A DNA stretch of 64,000 nucleotides from Geothrix sp. PMB-07 (GTDB lineage Bacteria > Acidobacteriota > Holophagae > Holophagales > Holophagaceae): NCBI RefSeq assembly GCF_030758935.1, contig NZ_CP132333.1, positions 558,001-622,000 on the forward strand, read 5' to 3'. The position numbers and the translations under genes were made by a program. Numbering within the stretch: the stretch's first letter is position 1; each line of letters starts with the position of its first letter. Under the pieces are notes generated by a model. That model did not search any database. It worked only from the letters and a program-made list of their open reading frames with translations, and was not told the DNA's origin. Below, piece after piece: positions 34,711-46,597 of this stretch.

Positions 34711-36183
34711 ATGTCCCGCCAGATCGTCACCCGCTTCGCCCCTTCGCCCACCGGCATGCTCCACATCGGGGGCGTGCGCACCGCCCTTTTCTGCTGGCTG
34801 TTTGCCCGCAAGCATGGCGGCCGCTTCATCCTCCGCATCGAAGACACCGATCTCTCCCGCAGCACCGATGACAACATCCGCATCATCGAAGAGGGCATGG
34901 CCTGGTGCGGCCTGGATTGGGACGAGGGCCCCGTGGTGGGCGAGGCCAGCCAGTGGAAGGGCCCGCACGGTCCCTACCGTCAGATGCAGCGCATGGACCT
35001 CTACAAGGCCAAGATCCAGGAGCTGTTGGACAAGGATTTGGCCTACCGCTGCCGCTGTTCGCGCGAGGCCATCGAAGAACGCCGCAAGGCCGTGGAGGCC
35101 GCGGGCAAGGTGTTCCAGTACAACCGCGGCATGGATCGGGGCAAGGGCTGCGCGGCCGCGAACCACGATGCCAGCCAACCGGCCGCCATCCGCTTCCGCA
35201 TGCCCGAGGAAGGCGACATCGTGGTGCCCGATCTCATCAAGGGCCACACGCACTTCCCGGCGGACAGCCTGGATGATTGGATCATCGCCCGCACAGGCGA
35301 TGGCCCCGGTGAGATTGGCGTGCCCACCTACAACTTCTGCGTGGTGGTGGACGACACCCACATGCAGGTGACCCACGTGATCCGCGGCGACGACCACCTC
35401 AACAACACGCCCAAGCAGATCCCGCTCTTCGCGGCCTTCGGCTACGAGCTGCCCGCCTTCGCGCACGTGCCCATGATCCTGGGCGCCGACGGCGCCAAGC
35501 TCAGCAAGCGCCACGGCGCCACCAGCATCACCGAATACCAGGCCATGGGCCTGCTGCCCTCCGCCGTGCGGCTGGCCCTGGCGCGGCTCTCCTGGACGCC
35601 CAAGATCGACGGCAAGGCCGTGGAGAGCGCCGAAGAGGAACTGCTCACCGACGCGCAGATGATCCAGCTCTTCGACCTGGCGGATTGCCAGAAGAGCGCT
35701 GCCCGCTTCGACATGGACAAACTCCAGTGGCTGAACCAGAAGCTCATCCAGCGGGCCTCCTGGCAGGAACTGGAGCCGCACCTGCGGCCCTTCATGCCCG
35801 AATCCTGGCCCGGCAAGCCGGATGCCTGGAAGGCCCAAGCCATTCAGTGCACACAGAAGGGCAAGTCCCTCACCGACATGGCCGAGGCTCTGCGCTTCGC
35901 CTTCGAGCGGCCCACCAGCTTCGACGAGAAGGCCGTGGAGAAGTTCATCACCCCGGCCGTCAAACCCGCCCTGGCCGAAGTGGCCGCGCTGACCGACTAC
36001 ACCCATGAGGGCCTGGAAGCCGCCTTCGCCGCCATCCTGGAACGCCATGGCCTGAAGACCAAGGATCTGGCCCAGGCCCTGCGCGTGGCCCTCTGCGGCA
36101 AGCCCGTGAGCCCCGGCATCTACGACACGCTCATGCTGACCGGGCGTGATGAAGTGGTGGCGCGGCTCAGCCGCTGGTTGTGA
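34711..36183 (+). CDS. gltX: Glutamyl-tRNA synthetase
   Basis: 490 residues, class I synthetase with the HIGH-type motif in PSPTGMLHIGGVRTALF and the KMSKS-type motif KLSKRHG. The catalytic domain (about 1-320) is followed by a helical anticodon-binding domain. Length and motifs match bacterial GltX. A separate glutaminyl-tRNA synthetase is encoded 1.5 kb downstream, so this enzyme is probably specific for tRNA-Glu. The stop overlaps the next short gene (TGATG). Confidence 0.97.
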   Translation: MSRQIVTRFAPSPTGMLHIGGVRTALFCWLFARKHGGRFILRIEDTDLSRSTDDNIRIIEEGMAWCGLDWDEGPVVGEASQWKGPHGPYRQMQRMDLYKAKIQELLDKDLAYRCRCSREAIEERRKAVEAAGKVFQYNRGMDRGKGCAAANHDASQPAAIRFRMPEEGDIVVPDLIKGHTHFPADSLDDWIIARTGDGPGEIGVPTYNFCVVVDDTHMQVTHVIRGDDHLNNTPKQIPLFAAFGYELPAFAHVPMILGADGAKLSKRHGATSITEYQAMGLLPSAVRLALARLSWTPKIDGKAVESAEEELLTDAQMIQLFDLADCQKSAARFDMDKLQWLNQKLIQRASWQELEPHLRPFMPESWPGKPDAWKAQAIQCTQKGKSLTDMAEALRFAFERPTSFDEKAVEKFITPAVKPALAEVAALTDYTHEGLEAAFAAILERHGLKTKDLAQALRVALCGKPVSPGIYDTLMLTGRDEVVARLSRWL

Positions 36184-36539
36184 TGGCGGGGGCCATGGAT
36201 CTCGACGAATTCACCCACATCACCCTCACGGTGCTGGAGGACCAGGGCACCGCCGCCTACGCGCCGACCATCATCGCCGCGGAATCGGTGCAGGTGATCC
36301 AGAACATCCCCGAGGGTTTCGACCACCGGGAGGCCCTGCAGGAGACCGTCCTGCGCCTGGGCCTCGCCCAGTCGGATTTCTTCTTTGGCGTAAAATCGGG
36401 CCCGGGCGAAGTCACCACGGGCTTCCACACCGCCATCACCACCCAGTTCCAGCGCATCTCGGAAATGAAGCAGGGCTTCGTCGTCTCCGCCCTGAACGAT
36501 TGCCCCTGGTGGACCCTGGGGCAGGGGCGGGACCAGTAG
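36183..36539 (+). CDS. Hypothetical protein coupled to gltX
   Basis: 118 residues, soluble, mixed alpha/beta, with no recognised motif. ATG 36183 overlaps the gltX stop by one base; ATG 36195 with a GGCGGGGG site is an alternative. A central helix HREALQETVLRLGL and the strand GFHTAITTQF are the clearest features. The close coupling suggests it is a real gene rather than a shadow frame. Confidence 0.55.
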   Translation: MAGAMDLDEFTHITLTVLEDQGTAAYAPTIIAAESVQVIQNIPEGFDHREALQETVLRLGLAQSDFFFGVKSGPGEVTTGFHTAITTQFQRISEMKQGFVVSALNDCPWWTLGQGRDQ

Positions 36540-36574
36540 TCACGGTTTCATCTTTGCTTCTATGGGGTTCCGGC

Positions 36575-36580
36575 TATGCT
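36575..36580 (+). promoter_or_regulatory. Possible -10 box for the proC leader
   Basis: TATGCT at 36575-36580 lies downstream of a TTTGCT-like -35 at 36553-36558 with a 16-base spacer. The start would be near 36587. Confidence 0.25.
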
Positions 36581-36587
36581 GATGCCC

Positions 36588-36659
36588 ATGAACTCCTTCT
36601 CGGCCGTGCACCCGCGCCCTAGCACCTTGAGTGCGGGGGGGAGCTGCGCGCCTCGCTGA
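36588..36659 (+). CDS. Possible leader peptide upstream of proC
   Basis: A 23-codon reading frame (in-frame ATGs at 36576 and 36582 could lengthen it) with Pro codons at 36612 and 36618 in an HPRP stretch, ending between the two arms of the alternative hairpin. No strong ribosome site is seen for 36588; the 36576 start has GGGG eight bases upstream. It is proposed only because of the attenuator context. Confidence 0.25.
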   Translation: MNSFSAVHPRPSTLSAGGSCAPR

Positions 36660-36713
36660 CCTGGAATCAGGTTTCGATATCCCCCCGCCACCCCCGGCGG
36701 GGTTTTTCGTTTT
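36612..36713 (+). promoter_or_regulatory. Attenuator-like leader of proC
   Basis: An intrinsic terminator (CCCCGCC 36683-36689, loop, GGCGGGG 36696-36702, then TTTTTCGTTTT) ends 11 bases before the proC start, leaving no room for a promoter between them. Its 5' arm can pair alternatively with GTGCGGGGGGG (36631-36641) for about 11 bp, and CCCGC at 36612-36616 can in turn pair with that arm. Confidence 0.55.
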
Positions 36714-36724
36714 AGGGAGTCCCC

Positions 36725-37540
36725 GTGAGTCAGCATCCTCAACTCGCCATCATCGGTTTCGGCACCATGGGCCAGGCCATCAGCGCCGGTCTGGTGGAAG
36801 CCTCGGGTTACCCCGCCGGGCGCATCCATGCGGCCACGCGGCATCCCCACGCGGCCCGCGCCCGGGCCGAGGCCCTGGGCCTGGAGCTCACCCACGATGT
36901 GGATGCCGCGGTGCGGGCCTCGGAAGTGGTGCTGCTCTGCGTGAAGCCCCGCGAACTGAAGGGGTTGCTGGAACGCCTCAACGCCACCGGGGCCCTGGAT
37001 CACCGGCCCCTGGTGGTGTCCATCGCCGCGGGCACCACGCTGGCCTTCCTCGAGGCCCACACGCCCGCAGGCACACCCCTGGTGCGCGCCATGCCCAACA
37101 CGCCCTGCGCCATCCGCAAGGGCATGACGGTGCTGGCGGCGGGTCAGGCGGTCAGCGAGGCCCAGCTGGCTCAGGCCCGGATCCTGTTCGAGCCCCTGGG
37201 CCGCGTGATGGATCTGGACGAAAAACACATGGATGCCGTCACCGGCCTCAGCGCCAGCGGCCCCGCCTTCATGTTCATCATCCTGGAATCCCTGGCGGAG
37301 GGCGGCGTCCAGTGTGGATTGCCCCGCGCCGTGGCCCTGGAGCTGGCGGCCCAGATGACCCTGGGCGCCGCCTCCATGGTGCTGGAAACCGGCAAGCACC
37401 CCGCCGCCCTCAAGGACGAGGTGACCACTCCCGCCGGCTGCACCATCGCCGGCCTGTTGGCCCTGGAGGATGGCCGCATCCGCTCCGTCGTGGCCCGGGG
37501 CATCGAGCGCGCCACCCAGGTGGCGGCGGGGCTGGGGTAG
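36725..37540 (+). CDS. proC: Pyrroline-5-carboxylate reductase
   Basis: 271 residues. Rossmann fold with IIGFGTMGQAI at the N-terminus, RAMPNTPC and the C-terminal signature DEVTTPAGCTIAGL, the standard ProC motifs. It reduces P5C to proline with NAD(P)H. GTG 36725 has GGGAG five bases upstream, directly after a terminator T tract. Single gene followed by a 134-base gap. Confidence 0.96.
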   Translation: MSQHPQLAIIGFGTMGQAISAGLVEASGYPAGRIHAATRHPHAARARAEALGLELTHDVDAAVRASEVVLLCVKPRELKGLLERLNATGALDHRPLVVSIAAGTTLAFLEAHTPAGTPLVRAMPNTPCAIRKGMTVLAAGQAVSEAQLAQARILFEPLGRVMDLDEKHMDAVTGLSASGPAFMFIILESLAEGGVQCGLPRAVALELAAQMTLGAASMVLETGKHPAALKDEVTTPAGCTIAGLLALEDGRIRSVVARGIERATQVAAGLG

Positions 37541-37572
37541 GGATTTGCCATCGCTGGACAGAGGTGGAGGTT

Positions 37573-37607
37573 GATCCATCTCTGGGTTCATCCGTGTTGA
37601 TCCGTGG
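37573..37607 (+). repeat. Degenerate ATCCGTG repeat
   Basis: ATCCGTG occurs twice with a 10-base step (37590, 37600), preceded by a related ATCTCTG. It resembles the right arm of the 24467-24577 element. It lies in the glnS upstream region. Confidence 0.35.
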
Positions 37608-37674
37608 CTTGATTGCCTTTTGGGGATTGATGCGAGGCCTTGGTATCTTGAAGGTTTACGGATTGTGAGCTCCG

Positions 37675-39384
37675 ATGTCTTCCGATACCCCAGCCCCTGA
37701 ACCCCGCAGCCTCCACTTCATCGAGGAGATCGTCGAGGCGGACCGCGCCTCTGGTAAGCACGGGGGGAGGGTGCTCACGCGCTTCCCGCCAGAGCCCAAC
37801 GGCTACCTGCACATCGGTCACGCCAAGAGCATCTGCCTGAACTTCGGCTTGGCGAAGGCCTACGGCGGCGCCACCAACCTGCGCTTCGATGACACCAACC
37901 CCGTGAAGGAGGACGTCGAGTACGTGGATTCCATCCGGGAGGACGTGCAGTGGCTGGGGTTTGAGTGGAAGGGCGAGCACTACGCCTCGGACTACTTCCA
38001 GTTCATGTACGACTACGCCGAGTACCTGATCGAGCAGGGCAAGGCCTATGTCTGCGACCTCACCGAGGCGGAGATCCGCGAGTACCGCGGCAACTTCCAT
38101 GTGCCGGGCAAGGCGAGCCCCTACCGGGAGCGCAGTGCCGATGAGAACCTCGACCTGTTCCGTCGCATGAAGGCGGGGGAATTCGAGGATGGCGCCAAGG
38201 TGCTGCGCGCCAAGATCGACATGCAGGCCGGCAACATGAACCTGCGCGATCCGCTCATGTACCGCATCCGCCGGGCCCACCACCACCGCACGGGCGACGC
38301 CTGGTGCATCTATCCCATGTACGACTACGCCCACGGCGTGTCGGACGCCATCGAGACCATCACGCACTCCATCTGCACCCTGGAGTTCTCGGACCACCGC
38401 CCACTCTACGACTGGTTCCTGGAGCAGGACGGGGAGGCCACCTTCTTCCAGCGACCGCTGCCGCGCCAGATCGAGTTCGCCCGCCTGAACCTCACCTACA
38501 CGGTGATGAGCAAGCGGCGCCTGCTGCAACTGGTGCAGGACGGCATCGTGAGCGGCTGGGACGATCCCCGCATGCCCACCATCTGCGGCCTGCGGCGGCG
38601 GGGCTACACGCCGGAATCCGTCCGGGCCTTCGCGGAGCGCGTGGGTGTGGCCAAGCGCGACATGGTGGCCGATGTGGGCCTGCTGGAGTTCTGCATCCGC
38701 GAGGACCTGGAGAAGCGCGCCCCCCGCCGCATGGCCGTGCTGCGCCCCCTCAAGGTGGTCATCACCAACATGGGCGACGCTGACGCCTTCGAGGTCGAGG
38801 TGGCGAACCACCCCGAGGATCAGGCCATGGGCACCCGCAAACTGCCCTTCACCCGCGAGCTCTTCATCGACCAGGATGACTTTCGCGAAGAGGCCCCCAA
38901 GAAGTGGTTCCGCCTGGCGCCAGGTGCTGAGGTGCGGCTGCGCGGCGCTTGTCTCGTGACCTGCAAAGAGGTCATCAAGGATGCGGCTGGCCATGTGGTG
39001 GAGCTGCGCTGCGAATGGGATCCCGCCAGCAAGGGTGGCAACGCGCCGGATGGCCGCAAGGTGAAGGGCACCTTGCACTGGGTGAGCGCTCCGAACGCCG
39101 TGAAGGCGGAAGTCCGGCTCTACGACACGCTCTTCACCCAGGAAGATCCCATGGACGTGCCCGAGGGCCAGGACTGGAAGGCGTTGCTGAACCCCGGCAG
39201 CCTCGAGGTGCTGACCGAAGCCCGCCTGGAGCCCAGCCTGGCTGGCGCCACCGCCGGGGAGCGCTTCCAGTTCGAGCGCACGGGTTACTTCTCGTTGGAT
39301 CCCGACAGCCGCCTTGGCGCCCTGGTGTTCAACCGGACGGTGGGGCTGAAGGATTCCTGGAGCAAGATCGAGGCGAAACAATAA
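37675..39384 (+). CDS. glnS: Glutaminyl-tRNA synthetase
   Basis: 569 residues, close to the E. coli length. It contains [15 protein letters not shown] (HIGH motif), the [12 protein letters not shown] segment and the KMSKS-type VMSKRRL, plus a two-barrel anticodon domain in the C-terminal third. It charges tRNA-Gln directly. The presence of GlnRS suggests the indirect GatCAB route is not required for glutamine here. Preceded by a 134-base gap with a repeat remnant. Confidence 0.96.
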
Positions 39385-44692: not shown

Positions 44693-46597
44693 ATGAACAA
44701 GTACTACTGGCTCATTCCGATCCTCCCCCTGCTGGGATCACTCTTCAACGGCCTCCTGGGCAAGCGCGCGGGCAAGGGTGTGGTCACTGTGGTCGGCCTC
44801 GGTGTCGTCTTCGGTGCCCTGCTGCTGGCCGTGTCGGCCTTCTTCGCCATGAAGGGCATGCCGGACCACCGGCTGGTGCTGAACTACGGCGAGTGGATGG
44901 CCACGGGTTCGCTGAGCGTGCCCTTCGGCCTGGCCATTGATCCCCTCAGCGGCACCATGATGCTGGTGATCACGGGCATCGGCTTCCTCATCCACCTCTA
45001 CTCCGTGGGCTACATGCATGAGGACGAGGGCTACTACCGCTTCTTCTGCTACCTGAACCTCTTCGTCTTCTTCATGCTCACGCTGGTGCTGGGCTCGAGC
45101 CTGGTGCTGATGTTCGTGGGCTGGGAGGGCGTGGGCCTCTGCTCCTACCTGCTCATTGGCTACTTCTACGAAACGGATTTCGCGCCCGATGCCGGCCTCA
45201 AGGCCTTCCTCACCAACCGCGTGGGCGACCTGGGCGTGGCCATCGGCATGATGGTGCTCTTCGCCGCCTTCGGCACCTTGACGGTCGCCGACATGCTCAC
45301 GCAGGCGGGGCATCTCGCGCCTGAGGTGGGTTTCGGCGTCCTCACCTTCGCCACCCTCATGCTCTTCGTGGGCGCCACGGGCAAGAGCGCGCAGCTGCCT
45401 CTCTACCTCTGGCTGCCGGACGCCATGGCGGGCCCGACCCCCGTCAGCGCCCTCATCCACGCAGCCACCATGGTGACCAGCGGCATCTACATGATCTGCC
45501 GCCTGGCACCCATCTTCACCCTGGCCCCCATCACCATGGACGTGGTGGCCTGGGTGGGCGGTGCCACGGCCCTCTTTGCGGCCACCATCGGTCTGGTGCA
45601 GCGCGACATCAAGAAGGTGCTGGCCTACTCTACCGTCTCGCAGCTGGGCTACATGTTCCTGGGCCTGGGGGCCTCGGGCTTCGCCGCGGGCTTCTTCCAT
45701 GTGTTCACCCATGCCTGGTTCAAGGCTCTCCTCTTCCTCGGTGCCGGCAGCGTGATCCACGCCATGCACCATGAGCAGGACCTCTTCAAGATGGGCGGCC
45801 TGAAGAACAAGACGAAGATCACCTTCATCACCATGGTGGCGGGCACGGTGGCCATCATGGGCTTCCCCGGCACCTCGGGCTTTTTCAGCAAGGACGAGAT
45901 CCTATACCTGGCCTTCCTGAAATCCCCGGCCCTGTGGGTGATCGGCGTCATCGGCGCCTGCTGCACCAGCTTCTACATGTGGCGCCTCATGGCTCTCACC
46001 TTCTGGGGCGAACCCCGCGATCACCACGCCTACGACCACGCCCATGAAAGTCCGCTGACCATGACGCTGCCGCTGATGGTGCTTGCGCTGGGTTCGCTGC
46101 TCTGGGGTTTCTGGGGCGTGCCTGAAGCTTTCGGCGGCCACTTTGCCGTGGGTGAATGGCTGAAGCCCGCCCTGACCTTCGGCCAGGCCCACGCGGCCCA
46201 CGGCCACCACGAGGGCCCGGCGGTGCTGCTGGCCATCATCTCCACCAGCCTCGGCTTGGCCTTCGGCTTCCTGGGGTGGAAGACCTTCAAGAATGGCCCC
46301 GCCGCGGAGCTGGCCTTCGCCGAGAAATTCCCCGGCCTGCACAACCTGCTGCTGAACAAGTACTACGTGGATGAGGGCGTCGAGCTCTACCTGCTGCGGC
46401 CCATCCGCTGGTTCGGCAATGTGCTGTGGAAGCTCTTCGACGTGATCATCATCGATGGCGTGGGGGTGAACCTGCCGGGCGCACTGGCCCGGGTCTTCGG
46501 GGATTTCACCGCCCTCTTCCAGACCGGCCGGGTGCGCAACTACGCCCTGAGCATGGCGCTGGGGGCCGCGATCCTCCTCTATGTCTTCCTGAAGTAG
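44693..46597 (+). CDS. nuoL: NADH-quinone oxidoreductase subunit L
   Basis: 634 residues, about 15 or more membrane helices. Antiporter-like core with GWEGVGLCSYLLIGYF, LPDAMAGPTPVSALIHAATMV and the lateral amphipathic helix near the C-terminus (residues about 540-600). Starts seven bases after nuoK with a GAGG site. Confidence 0.96.
   Translation: MNKYYWLIPILPLLGSLFNGLLGKRAGKGVVTVVGLGVVFGALLLAVSAFFAMKGMPDHRLVLNYGEWMATGSLSVPFGLAIDPLSGTMMLVITGIGFLIHLYSVGYMHEDEGYYRFFCYLNLFVFFMLTLVLGSSLVLMFVGWEGVGLCSYLLIGYFYETDFAPDAGLKAFLTNRVGDLGVAIGMMVLFAAFGTLTVADMLTQAGHLAPEVGFGVLTFATLMLFVGATGKSAQLPLYLWLPDAMAGPTPVSALIHAATMVTSGIYMICRLAPIFTLAPITMDVVAWVGGATALFAATIGLVQRDIKKVLAYSTVSQLGYMFLGLGASGFAAGFFHVFTHAWFKALLFLGAGSVIHAMHHEQDLFKMGGLKNKTKITFITMVAGTVAIMGFPGTSGFFSKDEILYLAFLKSPALWVIGVIGACCTSFYMWRLMALTFWGEPRDHHAYDHAHESPLTMTLPLMVLALGSLLWGFWGVPEAFGGHFAVGEWLKPALTFGQAHAAHGHHEGPAVLLAIISTSLGLAFGFLGWKTFKNGPAAELAFAEKFPGLHNLLLNKYYVDEGVELYLLRPIRWFGNVLWKLFDVIIIDGVGVNLPGALARVFGDFTALFQTGRVRNYALSMALGAAILLYVFLK

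Follow-up and report, generated by a model that had tools for sequence, protein, structure and literature searches.

A putative proline-sensing leader-peptide attenuator upstream of proC in Geothrix, and cognate leaders before other amino-acid biosynthesis genes in Holophagaceae

T-box leaders are tRNA-binding RNAs found mainly in Firmicutes, and T-box control of proline genes occurs in Bacillus. Their input is uncharged tRNA and their output is antitermination, as proposed here for the leader of proC, but they use no reading frame, unlike that leader. Attenuation of proline synthesis has reportedly been proposed in gammaproteobacteria (our literature search did not find that proposal). The proC leader described below resembles the enteric attenuators (trp, his, leu, thr, ilv and pheA), which, according to the accessible portion of PMC1183508, have a leader frame with at least two codons for the product amino acid and regions I to IV, of which II:III and III:IV are mutually exclusive, with the terminator before the structural gene. 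It also resembles the Salmonella mgtP and mgtA leaders, in which low charged tRNA-Pro raises read-through via the Pro codons of a short leader (PMC3641672, available text); these, however, precede Mg2+ transport and virulence genes rather than genes of proline synthesis. In Actinobacteria (Streptomyces trpL, leuL, ilvL and thrL, and the cysteine-rich small frames of mycobacteria), leader peptides are translated from the transcript start and carry cognate codons, with a terminator in several cases (PMC8079986 and PMC4633059, insofar as these texts are open to us). They belong to another phylum, the eight S. lividans leaders concern Leu, Trp, Ala, Ile, Met and Thr and neither Pro nor Asn, and no shared scaffold is described in the accessible parts of those papers. 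Leader-peptide attenuation, leaderless leader peptides (in Actinobacteria) and proline-codon leaders (Salmonella mgtP) are already known, as far as the available portions of these sources go.

A genome survey from 2010 found almost no associated functions for predicted attenuators in phyla such as Acidobacteria; until then leader-peptide systems had been demonstrated in Proteobacteria and Actinobacteria alone, and the survey extended them to Firmicutes (PMC2965389, accessible portion). Our search of titles and the beginnings of abstracts for leader-peptide systems in Acidobacteria, for leaderless attenuators and for proC or proB attenuation returned no report of the present system; subscription papers were mostly outside its coverage. 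Compared with the enteric attenuators, the Geothrix leader belongs to the proline pathway and to another phylum, apparently has no 5' untranslated region, and has only two control codons in its critical stretch, and some leaders of one Geothrix genome (those of proC and pheA) share a scaffold.

The DNA analysed, referred to as the window, is a stretch of 64,000 nucleotides from a genome (G000) that consists of a single contig of 4.24 Mb. Among named organisms, Geothrix and further Holophagaceae are closest to this genome. The features of the window are listed in Table 1. The identity of proC is supported by TIGR00112 (268 bits against a cut-off of 196.75) and by the Pfam families P5CR_dimer and F420_oxidored. 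The 114-residue frame ahead of the leader had no Pfam match and no meaningful NCBIfam match. The original prediction had placed before proC a terminator whose T tract ends 11 bases short of the start codon, and stem (arms 36683-36689 and 36696-36702) and tract were both found there. It had also placed the Pro codons of an HPRP motif at 36612 and 36618, and these were found in frame, with Arg between them. The upstream arm CCCGC exists as described but had been misplaced by one base, lying at 36611-36615 and not at 36612-36616. A promoter within the last 11 bases before proC would have refuted the prediction; a pattern scan of 35500-37900 gave no promoter above threshold, there or elsewhere. 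The same frame has two further ATGs (36576 and 36582), which fall within the -10-like hexamer or next to it. No Shine-Dalgarno motif was detected for the leader frame by a simple pattern, and the frame is apparently leaderless.

Table 1. Features of the proC leader and its surroundings (positions in the window unless another locus is named), and the proB leader of the same genome
Feature	Position	Strand	Remarks
gltX	34711-36183		Upstream of proC; Pfam tRNA-synt_1c; gene name inferred
114-residue frame	36195-36539		Between gltX and proC; found in relatives too
Whole proC leader	36553-36713	+	Three competing pairings, the last an intrinsic terminator
-35-like hexamer TTTGCT	36553-36558	+	Weak consensus match; 16 bases ahead of the -10
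-10-like hexamer TATGCT	36575-36580	+	7 bases ahead of the leader ATG
Leader frame MNSFSAVHPRPSTLSAGGSCAPR	36588-36659	+	23 codons; ATG at 36588, TGA at 36657-36659
Segment 1 (CCCGCGCCC ... GCAC)	36611-36625	+	Overlaps the Pro codons; pairs with segment 2
Control codon Pro 9 (CCG)	36612-36614	+	First Pro of P-x-P
Control codon Pro 11 (CCT)	36618-36620	+	Second Pro of P-x-P
Segment 2 (GTGCGGGGGGG)	36631-36641	+	Common to hairpins 1:2 and 2:3
Inner hairpin (GACCTGGAATCAGGTT)	36658-36673	+	Within the antiterminator loop; from the consensus fold
Segment 3 (CCCCCCGCCAC)	36681-36691	+	Antiterminator 3' arm and terminator 5' arm
Intrinsic terminator hairpin 3:4	36683-36702	+	7 G-C pairs; -15.1 kcal/mol
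T-rich tract TTTTTCGTTTT of the terminator	36703-36713	+	11 bases from the proC GTG at 36725
proC, pyrroline-5-carboxylate reductase	36725-37540	+	Controlled gene; GTG start
proB leader of G000	L182:1360-1486 (G000:C1)		Before the proB-proA pair; P-R-P leader

We interpret the proC leader as a ribosome-mediated attenuator that senses charged tRNA-Pro and sets proC expression, one of a set of cognate leaders of which some share a scaffold, and we put the probability of this reading at roughly 0.86. A transcript driven by the putative promoter (36553-36580) would start at or beside the ATG at 36588, where the ribosome would begin without a Shine-Dalgarno site. With plentiful charged tRNA-Pro, the ribosome would pass P9-R10-P11 and reach the stop codon; segment 2 would then be paired with segment 1 behind the ribosome, or be covered by it, and with segment 2 thus occupied the 3:4 terminator would form and transcription would end before proC. 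With scarce charged tRNA-Pro, the ribosome would wait on P9 or P11 and cover segment 1, so that segments 2 and 3 could pair, the terminator would be blocked and proC would be transcribed. The start site, the translation of the leader, the stalling, and the read-through with its dependence on tRNA charging are all inferences, and the control logic remains inferred because there are no expression data.

By DNA similarity alone, the leader was found in 18 of 60 relatives (its own genome included), all of one genus. Using proC proteins as anchors, we gathered 63 upstream regions from the class, excluding a partial proC match (G082), and scored them with a terminator detector separate from, and independent of, the detector of P-x-P frames. 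Frame and terminator were found together in 34 regions and neither was found in 22; five had only a hairpin and two only a frame. Four of the five solitary hairpins were the 3' end of the coding sequence of the upstream gene. The leader frame, whose lack of conservation had been named as a possible refutation, is therefore seen in 36 of the 63 regions. All 34 regions with both elements fall within the family, in four genera (g1, g17, g21 and g23), while all seven regions from family f3 lacked frame and terminator alike. Several Geothrix relatives lack a leader at this place, and their proC follows immediately on the gene upstream. Upstream of proC in genome G010 (L003), the leader is absent and a terminator-like T tract persists directly behind the stop of the upstream gene. 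This looks like a deletion of the hairpins and the frame; a collapse in the assembly is possible.

The 34 frames had been selected to begin with ATG, to span 18-28 codons and to contain at least two Pro codons and P.P or PP, and P-x-P was found in every one of them. The first Pro codon of the motif was CCG, CCT or CCC and the second CCT or CCC, with bases 1 and 2 invariant. The middle residue was R in 28 leaders, Q in 3, L in 2 and N in 1, and outside this motif the peptide sequence drifts (HPRPST, HPGLPPQPG, APSPCPLPRT, VPRISIPHPRPF, APRITMPNPNPG, NPAPSPRPS and QTPRPSQPP). A -10-like hexamer lay 6 or 7 bases ahead of the ATG in 28 leaders and 10-11 bases ahead in six, none of the 34 had a Shine-Dalgarno motif by the simple pattern, and in all 34 a terminator-like hairpin began 20-31 bases past the leader stop. 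Judged from this spacing and the missing motif, the proC leader appears to be leaderless; its start sites are unmapped. Pro codons were no commoner in the leader frame than in the other two frames (49 against 46 and 51 in 12 leaders) because the region is C-rich, and their enrichment was dropped as an argument for an attenuator. In a divergent group of proC leaders (L148, L150, L151 and L152, from G027, G068, G019 and G001), the leader resembles those of proB: it has TPRPSQPP and a -10-like CACACT or CAGACT, and is also matched by the sequence model of proB leaders (R2) described below. The resemblance suggests that leaders may have been exchanged between genes.

Folded as a whole, 36560-36740 was unremarkable relative to shuffled sequences (z = -1.34), so the argument for an attenuator does not rest on fold energy. 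The consensus fold of 23 leaders from the Geothrix genus contained the 1:2 hairpin, the inner hairpin and the terminator, and at two of its pairs both partners had changed. The column pair 11-40, in the pairing of segments 1 and 2, was GC in 14, GU in six and AU in three of the 23 sequences, and pair 57-66 of the inner hairpin was UA in 20 and CG in three. Leaders of the Geothrix type are strongly conserved as RNA. Together with the lack of Pro enrichment over the other frames, this conservation is what a riboswitch or protein-binding leader would predict, in which the conserved 36611-36691 binds a ligand or protein and the frame is incidental. We regard this explanation as very unlikely: an Rfam scan of the window gave no match at gathering score (T-box included), the Pro codons vary only at their third bases over four genera, and a ligand-binding RNA would not need the cognate codons that the pheA, asnB and DAHP synthase leaders carry, some of them on similar scaffolds.

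The pairing of 36631-36641 with 36681-36691, on which the proposed attenuator depends, was borne out at the coordinates first given for it. In the window it was equalled by only one of 200 shuffles and in two other leaders (L026 and L007) by none, and it was less clear in ten other proC leaders (3 to 49 of 200). In five of the 13 proC leaders tested (L138, L139, L141, L142 and L143), pairing of the terminator arm with upstream sequence fell below the shuffle mean. A swap of terminator arms among eight clades, tried as a test of coevolution, failed, since the predicted 2:3 pairing was not weakened (p = 0.48).

We also modelled stalled ribosomes, with the front edge placed 13 bases downstream of where the A-site codon starts. 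In the window, the predicted antiterminator reached its maximum of 0.38 when the ribosome stood on P11 and was 0.00 from L14 through the stop. At equilibrium the terminator was favoured at every ribosome position (lowest value 0.58), and the switch must therefore be kinetic. The same preference is what would be seen if an ordinary terminator, belonging to the upstream gene or to a small RNA, leaked constantly into proC without regulation. We find this hard to credit, because 34 of the 36 regions with the frame also have a terminator and 22 regions have neither, and because the spacing from the -10 to the start codon is tight. Returning to the attenuator, P-x-P was compared with random three-codon windows as the stall site across the 34 leaders, and none of 5000 placements did as well at offsets 10-14 (six of 5000 at offset 16). 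With one leader per clade (nine), the coincidence of P-x-P with the antiterminator was only a trend (386-905 of 5000). The predicted antiterminator was weak or absent in L138, L139, L141-L143 and L148. Given the per-clade trend, the failed arm swap and the five leaders below the shuffle mean, the structural half of the switch model stands well in Geothrix and lacks proof in other genera. Conservation of the alternative arm, whose absence would likewise have counted against the original prediction, holds for leaders of the Geothrix type and is only partly demonstrable in more distant genera.

In the same genome, proB and proA adjoin each other, and the leader before them has a GTG frame encoding MTGHLTPNPRPSHSQSVAGGSV, followed by the terminator CCCCCGACCCACACCCGGATCGGGGGTTTTT (peptides given as tokens in this text run up to their stop codon). 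We sampled 30 proB loci, of which one partial locus (L208) was dropped; the resulting count leaves out G073, G088, G089, G093, G082 and the partial G029. Leaders were found in 26 of the 29 family upstream regions, all in the genus of the window and counting its own genome. One excluded region, L210 upstream of proB in G092, contains a frame rich in Pro, but no T tract was evident there. Frames were accepted if any of three -10-like hexamers stood 6-12 bases ahead of them, and in all 26 the hexamer lay 9 bases ahead of the start codon. A terminator-like hairpin was present in all 26 and P-x-P in 25, the exception being L185 with Q-R-P. The predicted antiterminator was concentrated on P-x-P (mean 0.257 against 0.095, with none of 3000 random placements as good), a statistic that rests on 26 related sequences. 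In 12 of the 26 leaders, no codon had a predicted antiterminator of 0.10 or more, nascent pairing was below the shuffle mean in L193, L194, L200, L203 and L204, and an RNAalifold consensus of the proB leaders contained the terminator only. The proB gene lies directly behind proC in G073, G074, G089 and G093, and a single leader is therefore placed to control both. Nine genomes (G033, G004, G012, G072, G022, G034, G031, G016 and G014) keep a proB leader without a proC leader.

The frequency of P-x-P in both sets of leaders, with Asn-Pro-Pro-Pro in five proB leaders, could also reflect a nascent-peptide or polyproline stall, in which P-x-P itself, or P-P-P as in some proB leaders, makes the ribosome pause and the leader reports EF-P activity or translation in general instead of the charging of tRNA-Pro. 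Peptide bonds with proline do form slowly (PMC8129111, accessible text). We consider this very unlikely, since the two prolines are separated by Arg in 28 of the 34 proC leaders and since, in the sister leaders, codons for Phe, Asn, Ile, His or Trp precede the pathway that makes the respective amino acid.

The first of these sister leaders were found with model R2, built from the 26 proB leaders and run on 77 family genomes. Twenty of its matches outside proB and proC were fetched and read, and all 20 were leaders with cognate codons: 12 preceded pheA and six asnB, and the remaining two stood before a class II DAHP synthase and an asparagine synthetase A-like gene. The pheA leader of G000 (L217:970-1090) encodes MLTSRFYFAFSFRTSGARVGGV, with Phe and Tyr codons, an asnB leader encodes MTFPSLRTNRNFNNPLPRANRAWAGEGLT, with Asn codons, and the class II DAHP synthase leader encodes MTPPCTFFYYFGFRTPVRVGGVLR. 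The downstream genes of L217, L233, L220, L225, L222 and L226 were checked by NCBIfam and Pfam, and the others were recognised by the similarity of their start; the assignment to asparagine synthetase A, for which there is no Pfam match, is weak. A wider model, R3, was run on 12 genomes. Thirteen further matches were fetched and read, with the genes of eight checked, and comprised four asnB leaders (one of which, L276, has no listed start codon), two ilvA, three class I DAHP synthase, one pheA and one hisG leader, and two non-leaders (L277 and L279), which were weak matches with no leader present. Outside the read set remain the strong R3 matches G007:C2:516738, G006:C5:104799, G007:C1:513974 and G066:C1:482571, and most of the weaker ones. 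A weak match at window 45491-45569 was also rejected as a leader, as it sits inside a 634-residue frame, presumably nuoL.

In G000, the asnB leader (L267) encodes MTLSLQRFNRNTNRLPRADRAWAGEGLS and the ilvA leader (L268) encodes MNPFRLPIIPIGIAIITSREGA, with Ile codons. The peptides before class I DAHP synthase, found in relatives, resemble MTPRFHRYYWFPRADRAWHGEGPA. The DAHP synthase leaders L270, L272 and L273 mix Phe, Tyr and Trp codons, as if reading all three aromatic amino acids. The hisG leader, from a relative, encodes MTVLALHHPHHRASHGAAGACGRR; its E value (0.014) is no better than those of two false matches (0.002 and 0.03), so the assignment rests on its His codons, and the frame was picked with those codons known. 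The trpE gene of G000 (L212), located through its protein family with a score below the cut-off of that family, is preceded by a terminator and a leader encoding MLLSFPVPCQGLSSEAWWWRMGSDGSLCEA, with Trp-Trp-Trp; this frame was chosen for that motif among those listed, 7 bases past a -10-like hexamer. No Leu leader was seen by eye before leuA.

Across eight leaders, the match of leader to product reached the maximum of 40,320 possible assignments, a value that two assignments attain because proC and proB are exchangeable; across six leaders, it was the single best of 720. Seven of the eight leaders were richest in their own amino acid, and that of DAHP synthase was second to pheA in Phe/Tyr/Trp. 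With the terminators left out, none of 200 shuffles reached the scaffold similarity between proC and pheA (z = 4.8), between asnB and DAHP synthase (z = 8.1, 7.4) or between one DAHP synthase and pheA (z = 3.2). For 25 of the 36 pairs z was not above 2, so there are probably at least two scaffolds in the family, or else a single old one. The predicted antiterminator was higher at the cognate codons than elsewhere in all nine leaders modelled, but was no more than 0.03 in four of them; for this run a longer terminator stem was chosen for proC than in the survey of 34 leaders.

The cognate codons of these sister leaders, and not the fold, are the decisive argument for attenuation at proC. The main argument, from cognate codons and the conserved frame and terminator, is independent of the weak proB predictions, of hisG, of the DAHP synthase exception and of the unread matches. 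The P-R-P leader at proB and the cognate codons before other pathways support the original reading of a proline-responsive attenuator, the logic of which is inferred. We further consider it probable that Holophagaceae (Acidobacteriota) possess a multi-specific family of leaderless attenuators. Copies of a few ancestral RNA scaffolds would have come to stand before different biosynthesis genes, with changes to the control codons alone. These codons would specify Pro at proC and proB, Phe/Tyr at pheA, Asn at asnB, Phe/Tyr/Trp at DAHP synthase and, probably, Ile at ilvA and His at hisG.

With these leaders, a whole set of attenuators becomes visible in one acidobacterial family, with targets that include the synthesis of proline (proC and proB) and of asparagine. 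Similar scaffolds with different codons offer a natural experiment that could tell the general parts of an attenuator from the specific ones, and the leaders permit a simple test of tight coupling between transcription and translation in bacteria whose messages are apparently leaderless. If the multi-specific family is real, it would form a leader-peptide equivalent of the T-box family, with one architecture serving many amino acids.
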